A DNA stretch of 37,051 nucleotides from Calditrichales bacterium. GTDB lineage: Bacteria; Calditrichota; Calditrichia; Calditrichales; J004. The stretch covers positions 1 to 37,051 of the forward strand of contig WGCN01000054.1 of the NCBI GenBank assembly GCA_015493745.1. Direction: 5' to 3'. Shown in pieces: positions 16,021-32,354 of the stretch. A program made the translations under genes and the position numbers. Under the pieces are notes generated by a model, which saw nothing but the letters and a program-made list of their open reading frames with translations, was not told where the DNA came from and made no database searches. How positions within the stretch are numbered: position 1 is the stretch's first letter; each line of letters opens with the position of its first letter.

Positions 16021-17226
16021 TTATTTTACCAATTGCATACTGCCATAGGGGAAAATGGCAACTTTAGGTGACGGCGGAAGATATACGGATATATGATTCA
16101 ACAATTCTATCCATTGATCCGTAAAAAAATAGTCTTCACTAAAAACAGTGCTGAAACCTTCCCCATCCACATTTTCCACAAAAAAGGCGACATTGTACGG
16201 TTTTAACAGTCTCAGGGGGCGTGCCTTGCGATAAAGCCTGCCGCCCGCGCCAAACAAGCCGTGATGACCCACTCCCTGGCTGCAGGCGGACATCAGGATG
16301 AGCGTGCCATCCTCCCTGATCAGTCCTTCCTTTTTGGATTTAAGCGGGATCATGGCGTTTTCAGCCTGTAACAGCTCGGTATCCTTGGGATAGGCCGATG
16401 AGATAACCACATCATAAGGCCCGTCCGCCGGCACGGTGCAAAAGGCCGCCGCCACCAGCGATGCCTGGCGATGGGCCTCGACAAAATGACCGCCAAAGAG
16501 ATCACGGATCGACCTGTCGGGGTTCAAAACCAGACCCACAAAAAAATCCAATCCTGCTTTGTGCACAAAGCTTTCGATGGTATCACGGAATTTATTTTGC
16601 TCCACCGTTCCCAACTTGCCCATAAAACCCATCAAAACGGACTTATGGGTTTTGGCAAGGGTTTCCATATCGGCGATTCCCGGTACCAGCATTTTCGCCC
16701 CGCCGGAAAAACCGGCAAAGCTGTGCGGTGTAAGTCCGCTTACCACAATCTTGTATTCCGCCGCCAGGTAGTGACGGTTGAGCCGTATTTCCGTTTTGCC
16801 CCATTCCATGCCAATGGGTTCCGTTTCACCGGGATCGTGATTGATACATTGCAAGCGATCGACAATTTCATTGCCCAGCTTTTTTCGCAAATCCCCATCG
16901 CTAAGGGGCGCGTGGGAACCCAGCCCGATCAATACCTTTATGGCCGACCTTTTTACTCCGGCCCCTTCCAGGCGGGTCACAATTTGCGGCAGCAGCCCGT
17001 CCAGTTGCACGGGCCGGGTCAGGTCATCGACCACGATTACGGCGCTGGCCGGTTTTTTGTCCGTTAAATCCCGGGATAAACCGTCAAGAACCGTTTCCAC
17101 CTTTTGCGGACTAACCTTTTGATCGGCGTCCAGGCCGAAATAGTCGATTTCCCAGGCGTCCGGGAGTTCAAAACGGCGTTGCTTGTCGCCATACCAGGCA
17201 CCCCAGGGCATGGTAAACGTTTTCAT
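16021..17226 (-). CDS. LarA-type lactate racemase homologue (nickel-pincer enzyme)
   Basis: A 401-residue protein of the LarA family, which racemises or epimerises alpha-hydroxy acids using a nickel-pincer nucleotide tethered to a lysine. All the key positions of Lactobacillus plantarum LarA appear with matching spacing: DDLTRP (R71, for R75), GLGSHAPLS (H105, for H108), PHSFAGFSGGAK (H168 and pincer lysine K178, for H174 and K184) and AKTHKS (H194, for H200). It therefore looks catalytically intact. The cofactor enzymes LarB, LarC and LarE are not in the window. Its place is unusual: one base after the acyl carrier protein gene and one base before the polymerase gene, inside a polysaccharide operon. 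AAGGA lies four bases before the ATG. It may set the stereochemistry of a hydroxy-acid substituent or sugar acid; that is inference. Confidence 0.87.
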   Translation of the reverse strand: MKTFTMPWGAWYGDKQRRFELPDAWEIDYFGLDADQKVSPQKVETVLDGLSRDLTDKKPASAVIVVDDLTRPVQLDGLLPQIVTRLEGAGVKRSAIKVLIGLGSHAPLSDGDLRKKLGNEIVDRLQCINHDPGETEPIGMEWGKTEIRLNRHYLAAEYKIVVSGLTPHSFAGFSGGAKMLVPGIADMETLAKTHKSVLMGFMGKLGTVEQNKFRDTIESFVHKAGLDFFVGLVLNPDRSIRDLFGGHFVEAHRQASLVAAAFCTVPADGPYDVVISSAYPKDTELLQAENAMIPLKSKKEGLIREDGTLILMSACSQGVGHHGLFGAGGRLYRKARPLRLLKPYNVAFFVENVDGEGFSTVFSEDYFFTDQWIELLNHISVYLPPSPKVAIFPYGSMQLVK

Positions 17227-21786: not shown

Positions 21787-22815
21787 CTAAGGTAAATTTT
21801 TTACAATGGACGGCCCGAGCAGACGGGTAAAAGCCAGCGGCATTTTTTGCCACATACTTATGGCCAGCTTATACTTGGGATTATCCGGGTTTATTTGCGG
21901 CAATTCGCCACCCGATGGCAGGACATAGTACCAGTAAAGCTGCTGTTCCACACTGCCCCACTGTTTTTTAAAACGATACGTTCCGCTGTCACGCGAGCAG
22001 CGGCCGAAATCAAACTGCTTATAGCCCTTTTCAATGGAAAAGCGCAGTACCTCCCAGTACATAAGCATATTGGGACTAAAACGGTTATACTCCCGGAGGG
22101 TGGAGGCCCAGGGAATTTCCATGCGCTGTTTGTAGCCATGTAAAAAAGCGGCGCCGATGGTTTTTCCCTCTTTGGAACGCACCAGGGCAATATGACTGTT
22201 TTCCGGAGTCTCTTCCAGAATGGTTCTAAAAAAATGTTTAGAGTAAACCGGCGTTCCCAGATCACGCATATTGCGGCAAAAAACTTCATAGAAGTCATCG
22301 AGGAACTCCATGCCGCCGACCTCTCCGGTAATCCCTTCCTTGACCGGCCGGCGAATCTGGCTGCGCAGCTTGGCTTTAAATGAGGCCATCAGGTCATCGG
22401 GGGATTCCGGCAAATCCAGAAAGAAGGTTACCTTTTGCGTTTTAACCGGCAGGTGGGTTTCCAGGGGGCGTATGTCACGCAGTTCCACAAAATCCGCGCC
22501 GCACCGTTCCCGAATGGTTTCCGCTTCCGCGGTCAGGGCCTCCATCGCCTCCCGGCTATCCGCCAGAATACCGCCATAGTTTACATAGGGTACGGAAACG
22601 ATGAAATTCCCAAACAGGGCCGATTTAAAATGAACCAGCGGCAATACACCCACGATTTTATCCTGCTCGCCGGCCGCAATGTAGAAGGTCTCTTTTTTGA
22701 AATGCCTTTCGATTATCTTTTTCCAGGCCGATGTATGATAAAGGGAACCGGCCTCATGGGCATGAACATAGGCGTCCCACTCCTGAAAGTTCTCGGTGAT
22801 ATAGGAAACTTGCAT
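21787..22815 (-). CDS. FemAB-like transferase of the PEP-CTERM/exosortase-associated type
   Basis: A 342-residue protein built of two GNAT-like halves, as in FemABX aminoacyl-tRNA-dependent transferases. Key stretches are SLYHTSAWKKIIE near the N-terminus, VSVPYVNYGGILAD, SFKAKLRSQIRRPVKEGI, and PWASTLREYNRFSPNMLMYWEVLRFSIEKGYKQFDFGRCSRDSGTYRFKKQWGS near the C-terminus. The last block is very characteristic of the FemAB group that accompanies EpsH/XrtA exosortase loci. FemAB proteins transfer amino acids to amines; the exosortase-linked group has no proven reaction. It lies four bases after the acyl-AMP ligase gene and just before the ATP-grasp gene. Confidence 0.87.
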   Translation of the reverse strand: MQVSYITENFQEWDAYVHAHEAGSLYHTSAWKKIIERHFKKETFYIAAGEQDKIVGVLPLVHFKSALFGNFIVSVPYVNYGGILADSREAMEALTAEAETIRERCGADFVELRDIRPLETHLPVKTQKVTFFLDLPESPDDLMASFKAKLRSQIRRPVKEGITGEVGGMEFLDDFYEVFCRNMRDLGTPVYSKHFFRTILEETPENSHIALVRSKEGKTIGAAFLHGYKQRMEIPWASTLREYNRFSPNMLMYWEVLRFSIEKGYKQFDFGRCSRDSGTYRFKKQWGSVEQQLYWYYVLPSGGELPQINPDNPKYKLAISMWQKMPLAFTRLLGPSIVKNLP

Positions 22816-22819
22816 GCGC

Positions 22820-24346
22820 TTAAGCCAGGCCTTTCAACTCTTTGATTTTCGTTTTCATAATTTTTCCCGAACTGTTCTTGGGCAGGCTTTCAAACAGGGA
22901 GTAATGTCTGGGTTGCTTAAAAGGCGGTAATTTTTTTCGGATAAAATCCTGTAACTCTTCCTGCCAGGTTTCCGATTGCTCCTTTAACACGATACAGGCG
23001 TCGATGGCCTCACCCAAAATGTCATCCGGGCGGCCGATGACAGCCACTTCCAGAACGTTTTCGTGCTCCAGGATTTTTTCCTCGATCTCCTTGGCGCTGA
23101 TGCGGTTGGCCCCCTGTTTGATCATATCCTTGGAACGCCCCACCACATAAATAAACCCTTCCTCATCCATCCGGCCCAGATCACCGGTGAAATAGAGGCC
23201 GTGGCGCAGCACCATTTTTGTCTCCTTTTGATCCCGCCAGTAACCCTGCATGATGTTAGCCCCGCGGGCCACGATCTCTCCCCGTTCCCCGGCGGGAAGC
23301 GCGCGCCCTTTTTCATCGGCCACAAACAGATCCACATTGGGAATGGCCTTACCGATGGAGCCCCATTTGCTTTCAAGATATTCCGGCGCCAGATAGGAGA
23401 GACGGGCCGAAGCTTCCGTTGCCCCGTACATGATGATCAGCCTGGCGGGCGCCAGTACCTGGGCCACCTCCTTTTGCAGTGTGGGCGCCATGGCCCCGCC
23501 GGCCTGGGTAACGTATCTCAGCTTTGGCAACCGCCGCTCGCGGATATTGGTTTTGGCCAGCAGAATGGCAAAGGTGGAAGGCACGCCGGCAAAACCGGTA
23601 ACCTCATGTTCCTCCATGCTGTTCAGGGCCACATTGGGAAAGGCAAAGCGGTTTTCAATAACCAGACTGCCGCCGACGGCAATATGCGTATTGAGCAGGG
23701 ACAAACCATAAATATAGTAAAACGGGAGCACCACCAGCATCCTGTCCGCCGGGGTCAGCCGGAGATAGGCAATGATCGACTCGGTGTTGGTAACGATATT
23801 GAGATGGCTTAGGGTCACCCCCTTGGGTTTTCCCGTACTCCCGGATGTATAAACGATGGCTGCCAGATCCAGATTGATCAGGCGTACCTGCGGAGGCTGA
23901 GTGGAGTGGCTTTCCAAAATATCACTCAGAATATCGGCCCGGGGAAAATCACTCATGGGCCGCAGCAAAACAAAGGCATCCATCCGCTTTATGCGCGGGG
24001 ATATCGGCTTTAAGTATTTTTTAAAGTTCTTATCGGAGATAAAGACGCGGGCGCCGCAGTTATTTAGCAGATAGCGCAGCGTGTCCGCCGTGGTTTCCGT
24101 ATTCAGTCCAACGGCAACCGCCCCCGCTTTTAGCACCCCGTAATAGGTAACCACATAGCCAAAACCGTTGTCCAGCAAAAAAGCGACCCGGTCACCCCGC
24201 CTTACCCCTTTGGCGCGCAGATAGTTGGCCAGGGAATTGGCCGCTTCATCTATTTCACGATAGGTATACCACCTGCCGGAAAAAAGGGCCGGTTTATCGG
24301 GATATTTTTGCCTGGTTTTCTCAAGAAAAGTATGCAAAAGGTACAT
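22820..24346 (-). CDS. Acyl-AMP ligase (AMP-dependent synthetase), exosortase-cluster type
   Basis: A 508-residue adenylate-forming enzyme. It has the P-loop YTSGSTGKPKG (166-176), a later YGATEAS motif, YFTGDLGRMDEEGFIYVVGRSKDMIKQGANRIS (hinge region) and the C-terminal catalytic lysine in PKNSSGKIMK (K495). It activates a carboxylic acid as the adenylate and loads CoA or, more likely here, the acyl carrier protein encoded six genes downstream. Such a ligase-plus-ACP pair is known from exosortase-associated polysaccharide loci. The ATG at 24346 has no Shine-Dalgarno of its own but comes two bases after the stop of a short leader frame with a strong site, so it is probably translated by coupling. 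Confidence 0.9.
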   Translation of the reverse strand: MYLLHTFLEKTRQKYPDKPALFSGRWYTYREIDEAANSLANYLRAKGVRRGDRVAFLLDNGFGYVVTYYGVLKAGAVAVGLNTETTADTLRYLLNNCGARVFISDKNFKKYLKPISPRIKRMDAFVLLRPMSDFPRADILSDILESHSTQPPQVRLINLDLAAIVYTSGSTGKPKGVTLSHLNIVTNTESIIAYLRLTPADRMLVVLPFYYIYGLSLLNTHIAVGGSLVIENRFAFPNVALNSMEEHEVTGFAGVPSTFAILLAKTNIRERRLPKLRYVTQAGGAMAPTLQKEVAQVLAPARLIIMYGATEASARLSYLAPEYLESKWGSIGKAIPNVDLFVADEKGRALPAGERGEIVARGANIMQGYWRDQKETKMVLRHGLYFTGDLGRMDEEGFIYVVGRSKDMIKQGANRISAKEIEEKILEHENVLEVAVIGRPDDILGEAIDACIVLKEQSETWQEELQDFIRKKLPPFKQPRHYSLFESLPKNSSGKIMKTKIKELKGLA

Positions 24347-24348
24347 AT

Positions 24349-24399
24349 TTAATCAGTTTTGAGTAAAAAAAAGGCTGTACCGGTTGTGTCATATCTCAT
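24349..24399 (-). CDS. Candidate leader peptide, 16 codons, overlapping a terminator
   Basis: The frame MRYDTTGTAFFLLKTD starts at ATG 24397-24399 and ends in TAA at 24349-24351. GGAGG lies seven bases upstream, the best ribosome site in this part of the operon, while the following ligase gene has none. The ATG sits in the loop of the terminator hairpin, and the codons for GTA then FF run through its 3' arm and T-run. A translating ribosome would therefore disrupt the terminator. The stop is two bases before the ligase ATG, in a different frame. I see no run of one regulatory amino acid, apart from Phe-Phe-Leu-Leu. Real expression is unproven; this is a prediction from layout. Confidence 0.5.
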   Translation of the reverse strand: MRYDTTGTAFFLLKTD

Positions 24400-24422
24400 A
24401 ATCACACCTCCGGGGCAGCCTT
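24365..24422 (-). terminator. Intrinsic terminator/attenuator between the kinase and assembly genes
   Basis: On the minus strand AAGGCTG at the 5' side pairs with CAGCCTT, with further CCGG/CCGG and GTGT/ACAC pairing inside, followed at once by eight T residues. This is a convincing Rho-independent terminator 14 bases past the kinase stop. Yet the next gene starts only 19 bases beyond the T-run, leaving no room for a promoter between them, so about 20 downstream genes must depend on read-through or on a promoter inside the hairpin or kinase gene. Confidence 0.75.
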
Positions 24423-24435
24423 AAACTTTTATCTA

Positions 24436-26778
24436 TTAGTAGTTATAATATGAATATTTATAGTTGTCTTTTTTCATATCCAGCTCGGCACAATTGAGAA
24501 TAATGCCGAACAGATGATTTTGAAAGTTTTTGTATTCGGCCAGTTTGGCTTTAACATCTTCCACATTGGTCTTACCGGCGCGGATGACAAACAGACCCTG
24601 ATCCACATACTTGGAAAGCACAATGGAATCGGCCGTAACCATGATGGGCGGGGTGTCCACAATTAAAAAGCCGAAACGCTCACCCATAAATTTAAAAACC
24701 TCGGCCGCCCTTTGGGTGCCCAGAATTTCCGACGGGTTGGGTACGGCCATGCCGCTGCTCATCAAATAAAGATTGGGAATATGCGTTTGCTGAATCACCT
24801 TGCGGATATTCTCATCGGTAATATCGGCATTGCTGTAAAGAAAATCGGCCAAACCGGGTTTTTTATTACAGGCAAAGGAGCTATGCAACACACCGCGTCT
24901 TAAATCGGCATCCACCAACAGGGTGGGGATTTTTTGCTGGGCAAAGGTAATAGCCAGGTTTCCGGCATTCAGCGACTTGCCCTCACTGGGGTTCAGTGAC
25001 GTGACAAACAGAGAACGGTTGCGTTTTTCTTCATTGTTAAACAACAACTGTGTACGCAGACTACGGTAGGCCTCCCCCATGGGCGTTGGCGAGTAATCGG
25101 CCGTAACCAGCTTGGGGTCGATACGCTTGGATTTGTCAAACAACTCCGGGTCGATATCTTTTTCCGATCCGACCACGGGAATTTTAGCCACCACGCGGAT
25201 GGGTACCGCTTTTTCCAGTTCATCGGTGGTGCGTACCGTTTTGTCAAAAAAGTCTACCACCAGCACAAACCCCACACTCAGGCCGAAGCCCATGATAAAG
25301 GCGATCATGCCATATTTCAGGAACAGTCCCAGTTTTCCGGCCGTGGGGGGCACCACGGCGGGATCCAGTACGATGATATCGCCCACTTCCACCGCATCGG
25401 CCACCTTGGCCTGATTAAACCGTACCAGCAGCGAGGAGTAGACCTGATCCGCCACATTTCTTTTACGCTGCAGCTCGGCATATTCCAGTTCCTTGGCCGG
25501 TAAACGTTGAATTTTCAACTGCTGACTGCGAACCTGCGTATCAAAACTTTTTATACGCTCATCATACTGTTTTTCCACATTGCCGGCGGTGAGCAACACC
25601 TTTTGTTCCAACTGGTTCAGTTTCTTTTTATTTTCCAGCAACACCGGATGTCCCGGAGCGTAGGAAGATTCCAGCCGCATACGTTCTTCATTCAGGGTGG
25701 CAAACTCGGCCGCCAAAGCCGGCACGGTTGCCGGGCCGTTTACCGCCAGCCAGGAAAGCAGCTCACTGAGTACGGAATATTTTTCATCCGCGGCCGCCTT
25801 ATTCAAGCGCTGAATAATAGCCTGTAATTCATATTTCTTATTGTTTAATTCGATCTTTTGCGACTCGATGGTGGAAATGTTGGTGATGGTGCCCGCGGCA
25901 TCTCCGGCCAGCCCCACGTAGGGGTTACGCTGACGGAACTGTTTCAGCTCATCGGTGGCGATGTCCAGTTCCTGCTTGGCCTGCTCAAGCTGGGTGGTTA
26001 AAATGCCCAACACTTCACGGGTGTGATACTTTTTAAAATCAAGATTTTGCAAGACAAACTGATCCACCAGCACGTTGAGTGTTTCGGTGATATACACGGG
26101 GTCGGCACCGGTGATTTTTATTTCCATCAGCGTACGCAAGCGGTTTTTAAAATTGGGAGCCAGGGCCAGCCTTAAAATTTCAACCGCCTTAGCCTCTTTT
26201 AGCAGCTTGTAGGCCAGTTCGTCATGGGTTTTCCAGTAACCGGGCTTTATGTACAGGGTCGCTCCGCCATAGGATATCTGGTTGTTTTCCGGTATGGAAG
26301 TTTCCAGAACCACCTGATCCTCTATGGTTTTCTGCGGGTTGGTGAAGTAGAGTTTTAATACATTATTCACCTTTTCGATTCTGTAGTTCCCATACTTCAA
26401 ATCTTTTTCCAGACGTACGGAATCTATGACCGAATAACGCGGCTGCCCTTTTACCTGAAACTGATAATCGGTATGGGCCACTACCCGTTTTAAAAAGGAG
26501 CGACTCATCAACACACCCAGCTTACTGTCGTTTTCCTGACGGCCGCGGGCATTCATGCCGGACAGGGCGCGTTTGTCATCAAATTGCAGCAACGCCGTGG
26601 TGCTGTATAGCTGCTGCGGACCAAAATGGAGGGCAGCGGCAAAAACCACGATAAAGGTCACCGCAAAAACGGCCAGTAACGTCCACTTTTTCCTTTTGAA
26701 TAAACGGATATATTTTTTTATGTCAAACGAACTATCCGAACCTGTCATCGGCGCGTTCGATCCTTGATTGTTTTGCAT
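24436..26778 (-). CDS. Wzc-type polysaccharide co-polymerase and tyrosine autokinase
   Basis: A 780-residue inner-membrane protein. It has an N-terminal Wzz-like part with a membrane helix at about 33-51, a long periplasmic coiled-coil region, a GNVR-type motif (AKELEYAELQRKRNVADQVYSSLL) before the second membrane helix, and a cytoplasmic BY-kinase domain. The kinase has Walker A SLNPSEGKS (594-602), Walker A' LLVDADLRR (D623) and Walker B FLIVDTPP (D708). The C-terminus ends in a tyrosine cluster (Y773, 775, 777, 778, 780), the autophosphorylation site of the family. It controls chain length and couples to the Wza-like exporter encoded 11 bases upstream. GAGG lies five bases before the ATG. 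The gene is followed by an intrinsic terminator. Confidence 0.94.
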   Translation of the reverse strand: MQNNQGSNAPMTGSDSSFDIKKYIRLFKRKKWTLLAVFAVTFIVVFAAALHFGPQQLYSTTALLQFDDKRALSGMNARGRQENDSKLGVLMSRSFLKRVVAHTDYQFQVKGQPRYSVIDSVRLEKDLKYGNYRIEKVNNVLKLYFTNPQKTIEDQVVLETSIPENNQISYGGATLYIKPGYWKTHDELAYKLLKEAKAVEILRLALAPNFKNRLRTLMEIKITGADPVYITETLNVLVDQFVLQNLDFKKYHTREVLGILTTQLEQAKQELDIATDELKQFRQRNPYVGLAGDAAGTITNISTIESQKIELNNKKYELQAIIQRLNKAAADEKYSVLSELLSWLAVNGPATVPALAAEFATLNEERMRLESSYAPGHPVLLENKKKLNQLEQKVLLTAGNVEKQYDERIKSFDTQVRSQQLKIQRLPAKELEYAELQRKRNVADQVYSSLLVRFNQAKVADAVEVGDIIVLDPAVVPPTAGKLGLFLKYGMIAFIMGFGLSVGFVLVVDFFDKTVRTTDELEKAVPIRVVAKIPVVGSEKDIDPELFDKSKRIDPKLVTADYSPTPMGEAYRSLRTQLLFNNEEKRNRSLFVTSLNPSEGKSLNAGNLAITFAQQKIPTLLVDADLRRGVLHSSFACNKKPGLADFLYSNADITDENIRKVIQQTHIPNLYLMSSGMAVPNPSEILGTQRAAEVFKFMGERFGFLIVDTPPIMVTADSIVLSKYVDQGLFVIRAGKTNVEDVKAKLAEYKNFQNHLFGIILNCAELDMKKDNYKYSYYNY

Positions 26779-26789
26779 ATGGGCCTCGG

Positions 26790-27464
26790 CTATCTAACGG
26801 TTCTAAGAAGAATTTGATCTCTCTGATACGTGTTGTACAGTGTCCACACGGTGGCGGTAAGGGTTAAAATCGGCATCACATCGCGGATGGCATCCCAGAT
26901 GGTGCGGGCATCGGGCGAGGGTGTCCACAACTGATCACCCGATTTAAAGCCCATGGCCCGCAGGGAGGTGCCCCGCTCAAAAAAGGGGGTGACATCATCG
27001 TCCGGTTCATCATGCATGCGCTGCCACCTCATCTCTTCGATACCGTCCTCCAGCAAGGTGCCGCCGGCCATATAGACAACATCCCATAAGGAGTTATCTA
27101 TATCCACATAATAGAGACCGGGCCGGATAAAGCCCCCGAGTACGCTCACCCGTACCATCGGTTTCACATAAACATTGGGATATTTCAGATAAATTTTAAA
27201 TGTTTTTTTCAGATATTCGGATAAGTCCCGTGCGGTCATATCCGTCACTTTAATTTTGCCGACAATGGGAAACTCGGCATAACCACGGTCATCGATGGCA
27301 AACACCTGATTGAGGAATGAATTGCTATCGGGGAAGGTGCTGACATAGATGCCGTCCCCCGGATGGAAGGGCTTGGCGGCGGAACTCCCCTGAAAGGCCG
27401 ACAACGGTGCCGTGCCTAAAAATGTAAGTATAAAAAAGAACAATATCTTATGCTTAGTATTCAT
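26790..27464 (-). CDS. Wza-type polysaccharide export protein
   Basis: A 224-residue protein with a signal peptide (FFFILTFLGTAPLSA). It has a polysaccharide export domain (FHPGDGIYVSTFPDSN, AEFPIVGKIKVTDMTARDLSEYLKK, YLKYPNVYVKPM) and one SLBB-like beta-grasp unit (VRVSVLGGFIRPGLYYVDIDNSLWDVVYMAGG). The C-terminus has a hydrophobic segment (VMPILTLTATVWTLYNTYQ) that could be an outer-membrane-spanning helix as in Wza. No lipobox cysteine is present, unlike E. coli Wza, and it is shorter (one SLBB rather than two or three). It would form the outer-membrane exit channel together with the kinase encoded next. It follows the STAS-domain gene by 18 bases. Confidence 0.9.
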   Translation of the reverse strand: MNTKHKILFFFILTFLGTAPLSAFQGSSAAKPFHPGDGIYVSTFPDSNSFLNQVFAIDDRGYAEFPIVGKIKVTDMTARDLSEYLKKTFKIYLKYPNVYVKPMVRVSVLGGFIRPGLYYVDIDNSLWDVVYMAGGTLLEDGIEEMRWQRMHDEPDDDVTPFFERGTSLRAMGFKSGDQLWTPSPDARTIWDAIRDVMPILTLTATVWTLYNTYQRDQILLRTVR

Positions 27465-27482: not shown

Positions 27483-28298
27483 TTAACATGACCTGTAAAA
27501 TCTATATCTTTTTTCACGCGTATTAAGATCCAGCATTTTCAACAAGCGCCACAACTTAAAAATACTGACCCGGGTATGTCCGAACTGCTCATGTTTCAAA
27601 ATACGCTTTATTTGCCAGGGCGATACCAAAGGGTTTTCGGCAACGACCTTTTTAATCTTTTCGGTTAACGGCAGTTCTTCCAGTTTCACATCCTGCCGTT
27701 CCAGGGGATCAAAAACCGCTCCGGACACCTTAAATTCCTTGACCGGCGCCGTTGTGCTGGGCACCAGTTCAATCACATCGGCCGTCTCTTTGTCCGTTTC
27801 CCGCGGTGTTTCTTCTCCCGTTTCTTCCGCCGGGCTTTCCTCGATATGAATCTCTTCATGGCGGGCGGGTTCCCGGCTCTGCTCGGGCATGGTGACGCCA
27901 GCCTGTTCGCCCTCGGTCATATCCAGAATATCCTCGGTGGCGTCAAAAGCGGCGGCGGCTTCTTCCACGGTGGCGTAATCTTCCAGAATGTGGTAGAACT
28001 CCAGCATGTTAAAAACATCGGCAATCTCGGAATCCATACGGGCCAGCTTAATATCGCCGCCGTTTTCACGGAAGCGCTTAACCTCGCCCACAAAAATGCC
28101 CCAGCCGGCGCTGCTCATGTAGTTGAGTTCCTTGAAATCCACAATCACCTTAAATACCTGGCTTTCAAGAATATCCTCAAACATCTTTTCCAACTGATAG
28201 CTGTTTGTCTGATCTACATGGCCACCCAGTTCAACGATCATAATTTCACCGTTCTTATCGGCAAATTTGGAATCGATTTGTATCTGTGTTTGACTCAT
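27483..28298 (-). CDS. STAS-domain protein with C-terminal helix-turn-helix-like segment
   Basis: A 271-residue protein. Residues 1-115 form a STAS (anti-sigma-factor antagonist) domain with VIVDFKELNYMSSAGWGIFVGE, where S63 aligns with the phosphorylated serine of SpoIIAA. Residues 120-180 are an acidic, Glu/Thr-rich linker. Residues 211-271 are basic and predicted as three helices (TEKIKKVVAENP, SPWQIKRILKHEQ, SIFKLWRLLKMLD) followed by REKRYRFYRS, which resembles a DNA-binding winged helix or transposase-type HTH. This suggests a partner-switching regulator that binds nucleic acid directly. It sits between the sugar transferase and export genes. A perfect 16-bp palindrome lies about 83 bases before its start. 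The STAS call is firm; DNA binding is inference. Confidence 0.82.
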   Translation of the reverse strand: MSQTQIQIDSKFADKNGEIMIVELGGHVDQTNSYQLEKMFEDILESQVFKVIVDFKELNYMSSAGWGIFVGEVKRFRENGGDIKLARMDSEIADVFNMLEFYHILEDYATVEEAAAAFDATEDILDMTEGEQAGVTMPEQSREPARHEEIHIEESPAEETGEETPRETDKETADVIELVPSTTAPVKEFKVSGAVFDPLERQDVKLEELPLTEKIKKVVAENPLVSPWQIKRILKHEQFGHTRVSIFKLWRLLKMLDLNTREKRYRFYRSC

Positions 28299-28322: not shown

Positions 28323-28380
28323 TACAGCTTCGCCACGTCAAGTGTAATTTTATGCAAACCACACCGAGAAATATGCTTGC

Positions 28381-28477: not shown

Positions 28478-29464
28478 CTATTGCCCTTCACCCAGCAAAA
28501 CAACAAAGATTGTTTTCCAAAGTATTTTCAGGTTCATCTTAATGGAATCGGCATGCTCAATGTATTCGATGTCGCATCTGATTTTTTCCTTAACATCTTC
28601 CAGCGTTTCATCATACCCCACGGTCACCTGAGCCAGCCCCGTTACCCCCGGCTTGACCTTTAAGCGCTTGGTATACATGGGAATCTGCTTTTTAAAGGAT
28701 TCCACAAAAAAGGGCCGTTCCGGACGCGGACCGATAAAGCTCATATCCCCCTTGAGGATATTCATCAACTGGGGCAATTCATCGATGCGGGTTTTACGCA
28801 TAAAGCGGCCCACCTTGGTAATGCGCGGGTCTTCCTTTTGCGCCCAGACCGGGCCGGAGAGCTTCTCGGCGTCCTGAACCATGGAGCGAAATTTATAGAC
28901 CGAAAAGATTTTGCCGTTTTTACCCACCCGTTGCTGACTGTAAAAAATGGTACCGGGTGATTCCAGCCGAATGGCCAGGGCCACCAGGGCAAAGAAAGGC
29001 AACAATAAGACAATCAAGATCAGGGCAAACACAAAATCAAAAATACGGCGGAAACCAAATTCCTTGGCCGACAGAACGTCGCGAATAACGTCATGCACCA
29101 CATGCTTATAGGCGTCGTCATAAGCGTCGGTCACCACGCGATAGCTGACCTGGGCATGTTTGCAAACGGCTATGATCTTTGAAAGAAAATGTTTTTCACC
29201 GGGGGCGAGAACGATCAACACCTCATCGATATTCAGGGCGTCGATTTTAGCTTCAAACTCAGCCAGACCGCCAACGACGGGGACGTTTTTATAAAAGCTG
29301 TCTTCCTGCATGCCGTCGGGCCGGATAAAGCCCTGCACGTTGAAACCCAATGCCGGAGAACCCAATATTCTGTCGTAAAGGCTGGCCGCTTCATTATTCC
29401 AACCGACGATCAGAATATTTTTATATTTTCGCGATGATTTTTCCAATGCCGCTTCTGCAAGCAA
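28478..29464 (-). CDS. Polyprenyl-phosphate sugar-1-phosphate transferase (initiating transferase), short form
   Basis: A 328-residue enzyme that starts the lipid-linked repeat by moving a sugar-1-phosphate onto undecaprenyl phosphate. It has a Rossmann-like domain (KNILIVGWNNEAASLYDRIL, 15-34), a membrane segment (about 142-166), then the bacterial sugar transferase core: QQRVGKNGKIFSVYKFRSM, TRIDELPQLMNILKGDMSF, IGPRPER (244-250) and KPGVTGLAQVT. The start is TTG at 29464, preceded by AAAGGAG with six-base spacing. Full-length relatives (WcaJ/PssY type) carry four or five further membrane helices before the Rossmann-like domain; these are missing here and not encoded upstream. As the first gene of the locus it probably marks the operon start. 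Sugar specificity is unknown. Confidence 0.92.
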   Translation of the reverse strand: MLAEAALEKSSRKYKNILIVGWNNEAASLYDRILGSPALGFNVQGFIRPDGMQEDSFYKNVPVVGGLAEFEAKIDALNIDEVLIVLAPGEKHFLSKIIAVCKHAQVSYRVVTDAYDDAYKHVVHDVIRDVLSAKEFGFRRIFDFVFALILIVLLLPFFALVALAIRLESPGTIFYSQQRVGKNGKIFSVYKFRSMVQDAEKLSGPVWAQKEDPRITKVGRFMRKTRIDELPQLMNILKGDMSFIGPRPERPFFVESFKKQIPMYTKRLKVKPGVTGLAQVTVGYDETLEDVKEKIRCDIEYIEHADSIKMNLKILWKTIFVVLLGEGQ

Positions 29465-31525: not shown

Positions 31526-32314
31526 TTAGTTCTCCTTTTTTGTCGTTTTCTTCGGCTTGGCAGCCGTTTTTTCATCGGACCCCGCCTTTTTTTCCTGCTC
31601 GACGGCTTCGGCGATTTCCTTTTCCTGTTTTACTTTTTGACGGGCATCGATGATCACATCGGCCACGCGGCTGATAATCAGACTGATGCTTTTGGCGGCG
31701 TCATCGTTGGCCGGGATAGGATAGTCCACCAATGTGGGATCGCTGTTGGTATCCACCAGGGCGAAAACCGGTATGTTCATTTTACGCGCTTCCTTAAGGG
31801 CGATATGCTCTTTTTTGGTATCGACAATAAAGATGGCGCCCGGCAGACGCTTCATATTTTCAATACCGGAAAGAACGCGGTCAAGCTTCTCTTTTTCCCG
31901 GTCGATGGTTAAACGCTCTTTTTTGGAAATTTTCTCATAGGTACCGTCGGTACTCATGTCCTTGAGGCGCTTAAGATGCTTGATGGAACGCTTGATGGTG
32001 GAAAAGTTGGTCAGCATGCCGCCCAACCAGCGGTGGGTCACATAATACTGATTGCAGCGCTGCGCTTCGCTGGCAATGATCTCCTTGGCCTGTACCTTGG
32101 TACCGACGAAGAGAACGTCATAGCCGTCGAGAACGACTTCACGGATGGCGTCCAGCGCTTTATCCAGGTTGGCCTGGGTCTTTTTAAGATCAATGATATG
32201 AATCCCGTTTTTCTGCATGAAGATATAGGGCTTCATTTTGGGATTCCAACGGCGGGTCAGGTGACCGAAATGTGATCCGGCAGCAAGAAGCTGCTCGAGG
32301 GTAACTGCAGGCAT
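31526..32314 (-). CDS. rpsB: Small ribosomal subunit protein S2
   Basis: A 262-residue S2 protein: VTLEQLLAAGSHFGHLTRRWNPKMKPYIF near the start, IIDLKKTQANLDKALDAI, FVGTKVQAKEII, RWLGGMLTNFSTIKRSIK, PGAIFIVDTKKEHIALKEARKMNIP and a VDTNSDPTLVDYPIPANDDA block. The Lys/Glu-rich tail of about 40 residues makes it slightly longer than the E. coli protein. The frame is open to 32353, but the ATG at 32314 is preceded by AGGAGG at five-base spacing and gives the family's usual N-terminus. It begins a new operon after the rpsI terminator and has a structured leader. Confidence 0.98.
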   Translation of the reverse strand: MPAVTLEQLLAAGSHFGHLTRRWNPKMKPYIFMQKNGIHIIDLKKTQANLDKALDAIREVVLDGYDVLFVGTKVQAKEIIASEAQRCNQYYVTHRWLGGMLTNFSTIKRSIKHLKRLKDMSTDGTYEKISKKERLTIDREKEKLDRVLSGIENMKRLPGAIFIVDTKKEHIALKEARKMNIPVFALVDTNSDPTLVDYPIPANDDAAKSISLIISRVADVIIDARQKVKQEKEIAEAVEQEKKAGSDEKTAAKPKKTTKKEN

Positions 32315-32354
32315 AAATCCTCCTATGTACGGGTTAAACCTCCACCCTGCCAAT

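Follow-up and report, generated by a model that had tools for sequence, protein, structure and literature searches.

An intrinsic terminator inside a Calditrichota polysaccharide operon and a class-wide, ops-like element at the operon head

This study focused on a polysaccharide operon of a member of the Calditrichota, carried on a stretch of 37,051 nucleotides (the window, about 37 kb); the genes discussed are all encoded by its minus strand. A hairpin followed by eight T residues between the kinase and ligase genes is well supported as a functional intrinsic terminator, which would divide the operon into a proximal export and kinase part and a distal assembly part. An ops-like element, made up of a hairpin and an adjoining 18-mer, is found 3.9 kb upstream of the terminator, before the STAS-domain gene, and is likewise well supported, as a feature shared across the class Calditrichia. 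A connection from the one to the other is what we infer. In the explanation preferred here, to which we would give an even chance, the element loads an antiterminator of the UpxY/RfaH type that carries RNA polymerase past the mid-operon terminator.

The operon and its internal terminator

The gene order begins with ribosomal and translation genes, frr and a sugar-phosphate transferase gene, followed by genes for a STAS-domain protein, a Wza/EpsE-like export protein, a Wzc-type tyrosine kinase and an AMP-ligase-like (acyl-CoA-ligase-like) protein (Table 1). Behind the latter come an XrtA/PEP-CTERM-type FemAB gene, an ATP-grasp-like gene and then glycosyltransferase-, flippase- and polymerase-like genes, down to the end of the window, the operon itself ending near position 171. 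Some of these functions were assigned by reading the sequences, beyond profile matches. The FemAB-type protein (21787-22815, minus strand) scored 408.8 against an XrtA/PEP-CTERM cut-off of 260, while the ligase and an O-ligase-like protein of the same operon both scored under theirs. A relative of the LarA-type nickel racemases is also encoded within the polysaccharide operon (16021-17226, minus strand), with scores under the curated cut-offs.

Table 1. Features of the operon and of the putative regulatory system. Coordinates are window positions unless a contig is given.
Feature	Coordinates	Strand	Remarks
Sugar-phosphate transferase gene	28478-29464	-	
Hairpin directly upstream of the 18-mer	28341..28365	-	z -3.1
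Ops-like 18-mer, TGACGTGGCGAAGCTGTA	28323..28340	-	24 nt ahead of the STAS start codon
STAS-domain gene	27483..28298	-	behind the ops-like element
Wza/EpsE-like export gene	26790..27464	-	weak EpsE match and gene order
Wzc-type tyrosine kinase gene	24436..26778	-	last before the terminator
Intrinsic terminator (well supported)	24365..24422	-	stem-loop 24422-24371, then T8 24372-24365
GGAGG Shine-Dalgarno sequence of the leader	24407..24411	-	partly in the 5' arm of the stem
Leader frame, MRYDTTGTAFFLLKTD	24349..24399	-	16 codons, through the 3' arm and T-run; clade-limited
AMP-ligase-like gene	22820..24346	-	first behind the terminator; no Shine-Dalgarno sequence
UpxY/RfaH-type NusG paralog gene	G000:C23:49356-49862		passes the UpxY profile cut-off

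The kinase and ligase genes are separated by a gap of 89 nt that contains the hairpin and its T8. The kinase stop codon (TAA, 24438-24436) is 13 nt ahead of the stem (AAGGCTG...CAGCCTT, 24422-24371), and the ligase ATG occupies 24346-24344. The hairpin has a z-score of -4.6, with none of 200 shuffled sequences being equally stable, and its stem, at -25.1 kcal/mol, is the most stable among the T-run hairpins on both strands of the window. From the STAS gene to the operon end no other intergenic T-run hairpin occurs, and this one has the sequence expected of an intrinsic terminator, a stable GC-rich stem with a U-run directly behind it. The minimum-energy fold of 275 nt retains the terminator, so that an alternative fold with upstream RNA was rejected, as was a repeated element, since the hairpin region matches only once in the genome. 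A search for known RNA families at the hairpin gave none at the gathering threshold, only implausible eukaryotic matches with E-values of about 1 and above.

The comparison covered six family genomes, most of them assembled from metagenomes: the window genome (G000), its congeners G001-G003, and G004 and G005 from a sister genus. A scan of genome contigs for further species brought up these close relatives again and added no congener. Wherever contigs reach, the order sugar transferase, STAS, Wza, kinase, ligase, FemAB is kept. The kinase/ligase junction carries a terminator in all six, the hairpin sequences differing between the two genera, and in G001 the hairpin is retained through compensating changes. 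The position of the terminator thus persists under sequence turnover. Together with its z-score and its rank among the T-run hairpins of the window, this bears out an earlier reading of the window, made from its sequence only, in which a terminator had been placed in the middle of the operon. The kinase gene ends in a tyrosine-rich tail (YKYSYYNY; DNA 24436-24500, minus strand) whose synonymous sites are unusually well conserved in G002/G003 (about 92% for the final 60 bases).

A conserved place with turnover of sequence requires no regulator, and a simple, unregulated leaky terminator is a serious rival explanation, though we consider it unlikely. It would set a fixed ratio of export and kinase to assembly products, or damp stray transcription, and do so with no dedicated antiterminator. 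Ribosomes that finish the kinase gene may in addition weaken the hairpin: in E. coli, a terminating ribosome less than 27 nt from the stem lowers termination (PMC4824070), and the kinase stop codon falls inside that range.

Unless a promoter is hidden at the terminator, readthrough must control the assembly genes. Such a promoter is assumed by another alternative, under which the kinase transcript ends at the hairpin and the ligase block has a promoter of its own, overlapping the hairpin and giving a near-leaderless mRNA. Strong terminators between genes often mark the ends of transcription units, and the ligase gene lacks a Shine-Dalgarno (SD) sequence in all six family genomes; in the window its start has a value of +0.6 kcal/mol, i.e., none, weak SD sequences being found also at many other window genes. 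However, a scan for sigma-70-like promoters (that type only) near 24370-24450 of the minus strand was negative, and T-run and ATG are separated by only 14-21 nt, the sequence of which is not conserved between the genera. A unit end at this point is improbable.

A leader frame across the terminator

The sequence-only reading had also described a 16-codon frame, led by GGAGG, that runs through the terminator between the kinase and ligase genes and stops 2 nt before the SD-less ligase ATG. All of this was found in the sequence as described: the leader ATG (24399-24397) has GGAGG 7 nt ahead of it, and the frame closes with TAA at 24351-24349. It was proposed that a ribosome translating the leader opens the terminator hairpin and then passes on to the ligase start, the state of translation thereby setting the expression of the whole assembly block. 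Strength of the SD sequence (-13.3 kcal/mol), good spacing, a frame through the T-run and a stop at the ligase ATG all speak for this. Two copies of the arrangement GGAGG-N4-9-ATG occur along the 37 kb of the minus strand, and the second of them (32323) fits the real rpsB start. There, GGAGGATTTATG at 32312-32323 (minus strand) points to ATG 32314 as the start of the rpsB-like gene, in place of the TTG at 32353 given in the mechanical list of open reading frames. Chance rates were taken from a 355-kb sample of the genome with 211 loosely defined T-run hairpins, eight of which have a start with an SD of -8 kcal/mol or stronger that reads through the T-run, and the leader SD is the strongest among these eight. 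The leader is therefore unusual, though it was picked post hoc.

Physically, a switch of this kind is disfavoured. In the predicted fold the leader ATG is free (p about 0.96 for being unpaired), but the stem takes up three of the five bases of GGAGG and so, once folded, partly locks the SD. Opening a 30S-sized stretch of the folded hairpin costs about 18 kcal/mol, and since this exceeds what the SD duplex gains (-13.4 kcal/mol), a ribosome would have to initiate on the leader before the hairpin folds. From the emergence of the SD to the end of the T-run the polymerase has just about 35 nt to transcribe, and cited initiation times are 1-2 s (PMC4824070). In a similar layout in E. coli, a translated second short ORF with a terminator 30 bp after its AUG, termination was lowered by only about 10% (PMC4824070). 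A fusion of leader and ligase by frameshifting was rejected: the sequence T TTT TTA looks slippery, but a TGA occurs in the -1 frame before the ligase ATG.

G002 and G003 retain the SD, loop and frame, and their leader stop overlaps the ligase start (TAATG). A block of 37 nt is identical in these two genomes, despite an identity of 52-55% at four-fold sites of the genes (70-74% near the kinase end), which favours the leader within this clade. In G001, however, there is no SD, TTG replaces ATG, and the frame ends at the T-run, 21 nt ahead of the ligase gene, while the terminator of G004 and G005 is a short hairpin with T8 that is unrelated in sequence and has no leader with it; all three nevertheless have the terminator and an SD-less ligase gene. 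Loss of frame, SD and ATG in G001 while the hairpin stays is the outcome that the sequence-only reading had itself named as telling against its proposal. The leader is confined to one three-species clade and is unneeded for the switch in the explanation preferred here. A local, clade-limited role, as opposed to a general one, is possible, since SD, loop and frame are unchanged within that clade, but control of the assembly block by the leader is improbable. Of the translation-coupled expression once proposed, the terminator and control by readthrough stand, and the leader as a general switch, being found in only three close species, does not.

The earlier reading could match the layout to no named system, but the E. 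coli pyrBI operon resembles it: the attenuator, an intrinsic terminator ahead of the first structural gene, is contained in the frame of the leader peptide, and a ribosome can suppress termination there. Pausing keeps ribosome and polymerase coupled across the pyrBI leader. The frame described here (24399-24349) likewise extends over stem and T8, but its SD lies inside the stem itself, the leader is not conserved along with the terminator (G001, G004 and G005), and coupling by pausing is a feature of pyrBI. A neat leader-over-terminator layout can be lineage-specific, and genomes should be compared before a switch is named.

The ops-like element and the UpxY-type paralog

Alignment of the other gaps in the operon revealed a block, ACTTGACGTGGCGAAGCTGTAT, that is nearly identical in both genera and lies between the sugar transferase and STAS genes. 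A pattern search detected it in 18 of 21 genomes of the order, with 27 matches against nine for the reversed-pattern control, mostly ahead of STAS-Wza-kinase operons, SLBB-type export genes and Gfo/Idh-type sugar genes; positions -6 to -1 (TGTAAY) are also conserved, though they lie outside the search pattern. A model using sequence only recovered the element at E <= 0.002 in 38 of 40 genomes of the class, and none of 20 outside genomes gave a value below 0.1. Among them, 18 of 19 genomes from families on which the model had not been built had the element at E <= 0.001. The hairpin 5' of the 18-mer varies in sequence, and over 51 sites, scored with the six conserved bases held fixed, its mean z was -2.1 (SE 0.14, the related species not being independent). 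As with RfaH and ops, the element takes a leader position, mostly heading polysaccharide operons, with a few matches before other long operons. A strong copy (G029:C1:3588918-3588945) precedes a hydrogenase-like operon in a single-contig genome with no UpxY-family protein over the cut-off.

That the element is a hairpin and 18-mer common to the class is well supported by these searches, and upstream hairpins of differing sequence point to action in the transcribing complex, less so to a promoter. An ordinary promoter was judged unlikely, given the differing hairpins before it, its frequent placement 15-25 nt before a start codon, and the NusG-paralog genes that adjoin it.

The window genome has a housekeeping NusG and a second NusG-domain protein. 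The latter scored 145.4 bits against the curated UpxY profile (cut-off 100), and fell below the cut-offs of the RfaH equivalog (95.8 bits, cut-off 144.5) and LoaP (50.5 bits, cut-off 125) profiles. Its gene, which has other genes next to it on contig C23, lies outside the window operon and so is not the first gene of the operon it would regulate. UpxY-type proteins over the cut-off are present in 34 of the 40 class genomes and in one of the 20 outside genomes, G029 being an exception in that it has the element and no such protein. The element and the UpxY gene lie on the same strand and within 7 kb of each other in nine genomes (G007, G009, G010, G011, G020, G024, G026, G027 and G034), where well under one genome would be expected by chance, by an estimate assuming about two sites per 4 Mb. 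The element is immediately upstream of the UpxY gene in G024 and G026, and about 0.6 kb upstream in G034.

A leaky terminator would leave both the class-wide element and the UpxY-type gene unaccounted for, although both could serve other features of the operon. In favour of that rival, element and terminator are not always found together: G006 and G017 have the element in a similar operon that lacks this terminator. Internal terminators were also rejected as a general mark of element-led operons, there being none behind the kinase gene in G006 and G017 and some in G031.

Proposed antitermination and related systems in other bacteria

Under the preferred explanation, RNA polymerase would pause while transcribing the ops-like element and be joined there by the UpxY/RfaH-type NusG paralog, whose gene lies in another part of the genome. 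The paralog would then ride along and lower termination 3.9 kb downstream, the assembly genes being made through readthrough of the terminator; where the factor is absent, most transcripts would stop after the kinase gene. In favour of antitermination are the conserved place of the terminator, the class-wide element, the UpxY gene and its proximity to the element, and a precedent, in that RfaH recruited by ops cuts termination at the intrinsic terminator Thly from about 40% to 18% in vitro (PMC2871177). Against it are the element without the terminator in G006 and G017, the lack of a UpxY protein over the cut-off in G029, and the description of RfaH as rather inefficient on intrinsic terminators (PMC7819879). 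Genes controlled by RfaH have no SD sequences (PMC7819879), with which the SD-less ligase gene agrees, an observation that is consistent but general.

Among systems worked out in other bacteria, the hly operon of E. coli comes closest, as it likewise has an intrinsic terminator inside a long operon and a recruitment element for a NusG paralog at its head (PMC2871177; PMC6391919). It differs in the sequence of the element, which here has a hairpin in front, and in the paralog, which here is of the UpxY family, and the effect on the Calditrichota terminator is a predicted one. The class-wide core GGCGGAGCTGTA and the ops core (GGCGGTAG..., PMC2871177) have GGCGG in common and differ in the bases after it; the window copy, GGCGAAGC, is thus not a 12-nt ops with the conserved RfaH core. 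In Bacillus, the LoaP/dfn system also combines a NusG paralog with a small RNA hairpin at the head of long operons that contain several intrinsic terminators (PMC12691694), but that hairpin is of the UNCG type, whereas here the hairpins vary, the conserved part is the adjoining 18-mer, and the paralog scores under the LoaP cut-off. In Bacteroides, as here, UpxY-family NusG paralogs, polysaccharide operons and antitermination go together (PMC7819879, PMC12632263). Each Bacteroides UpxY is encoded in its own locus and acts there on termination in the 5' leader, whereas in the Calditrichia there is usually one paralog gene, often located away from the operons it would control, and 3.9 kb of the operon precede the terminator. 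Bacteroides UpxY is said, in work by Saba et al. of 2024, to recognise the paused polymerase through exposed and upstream DNA, aided by nascent RNA hairpins. Recognition of that kind would fit an element made of hairpin plus motif.

More broadly, the Calditrichia may have an RfaH-like regulon of their own, a tentative proposal that we rate at slightly under even. It would consist of one trans-acting UpxY-family paralog, a composite element that it recognises (variable hairpin plus TGACGKGGCGRAGCTRTA), heading polysaccharide operons and some few long operons of other kinds, and, in the family of the window, a conserved internal terminator serving as a checkpoint, which polymerase loaded with the antiterminator would pass. 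In the literature consulted here, recruitment sites are described for few specialised NusG paralogs, namely RfaH in detail, the RNA hairpin of LoaP, and UpxY of Bacteroides. A class-wide element tied by position to a UpxY-type gene would provide, for a phylum that has received little study, a recruitment code that can be tested, with a natural intrinsic terminator on which readthrough can be measured.
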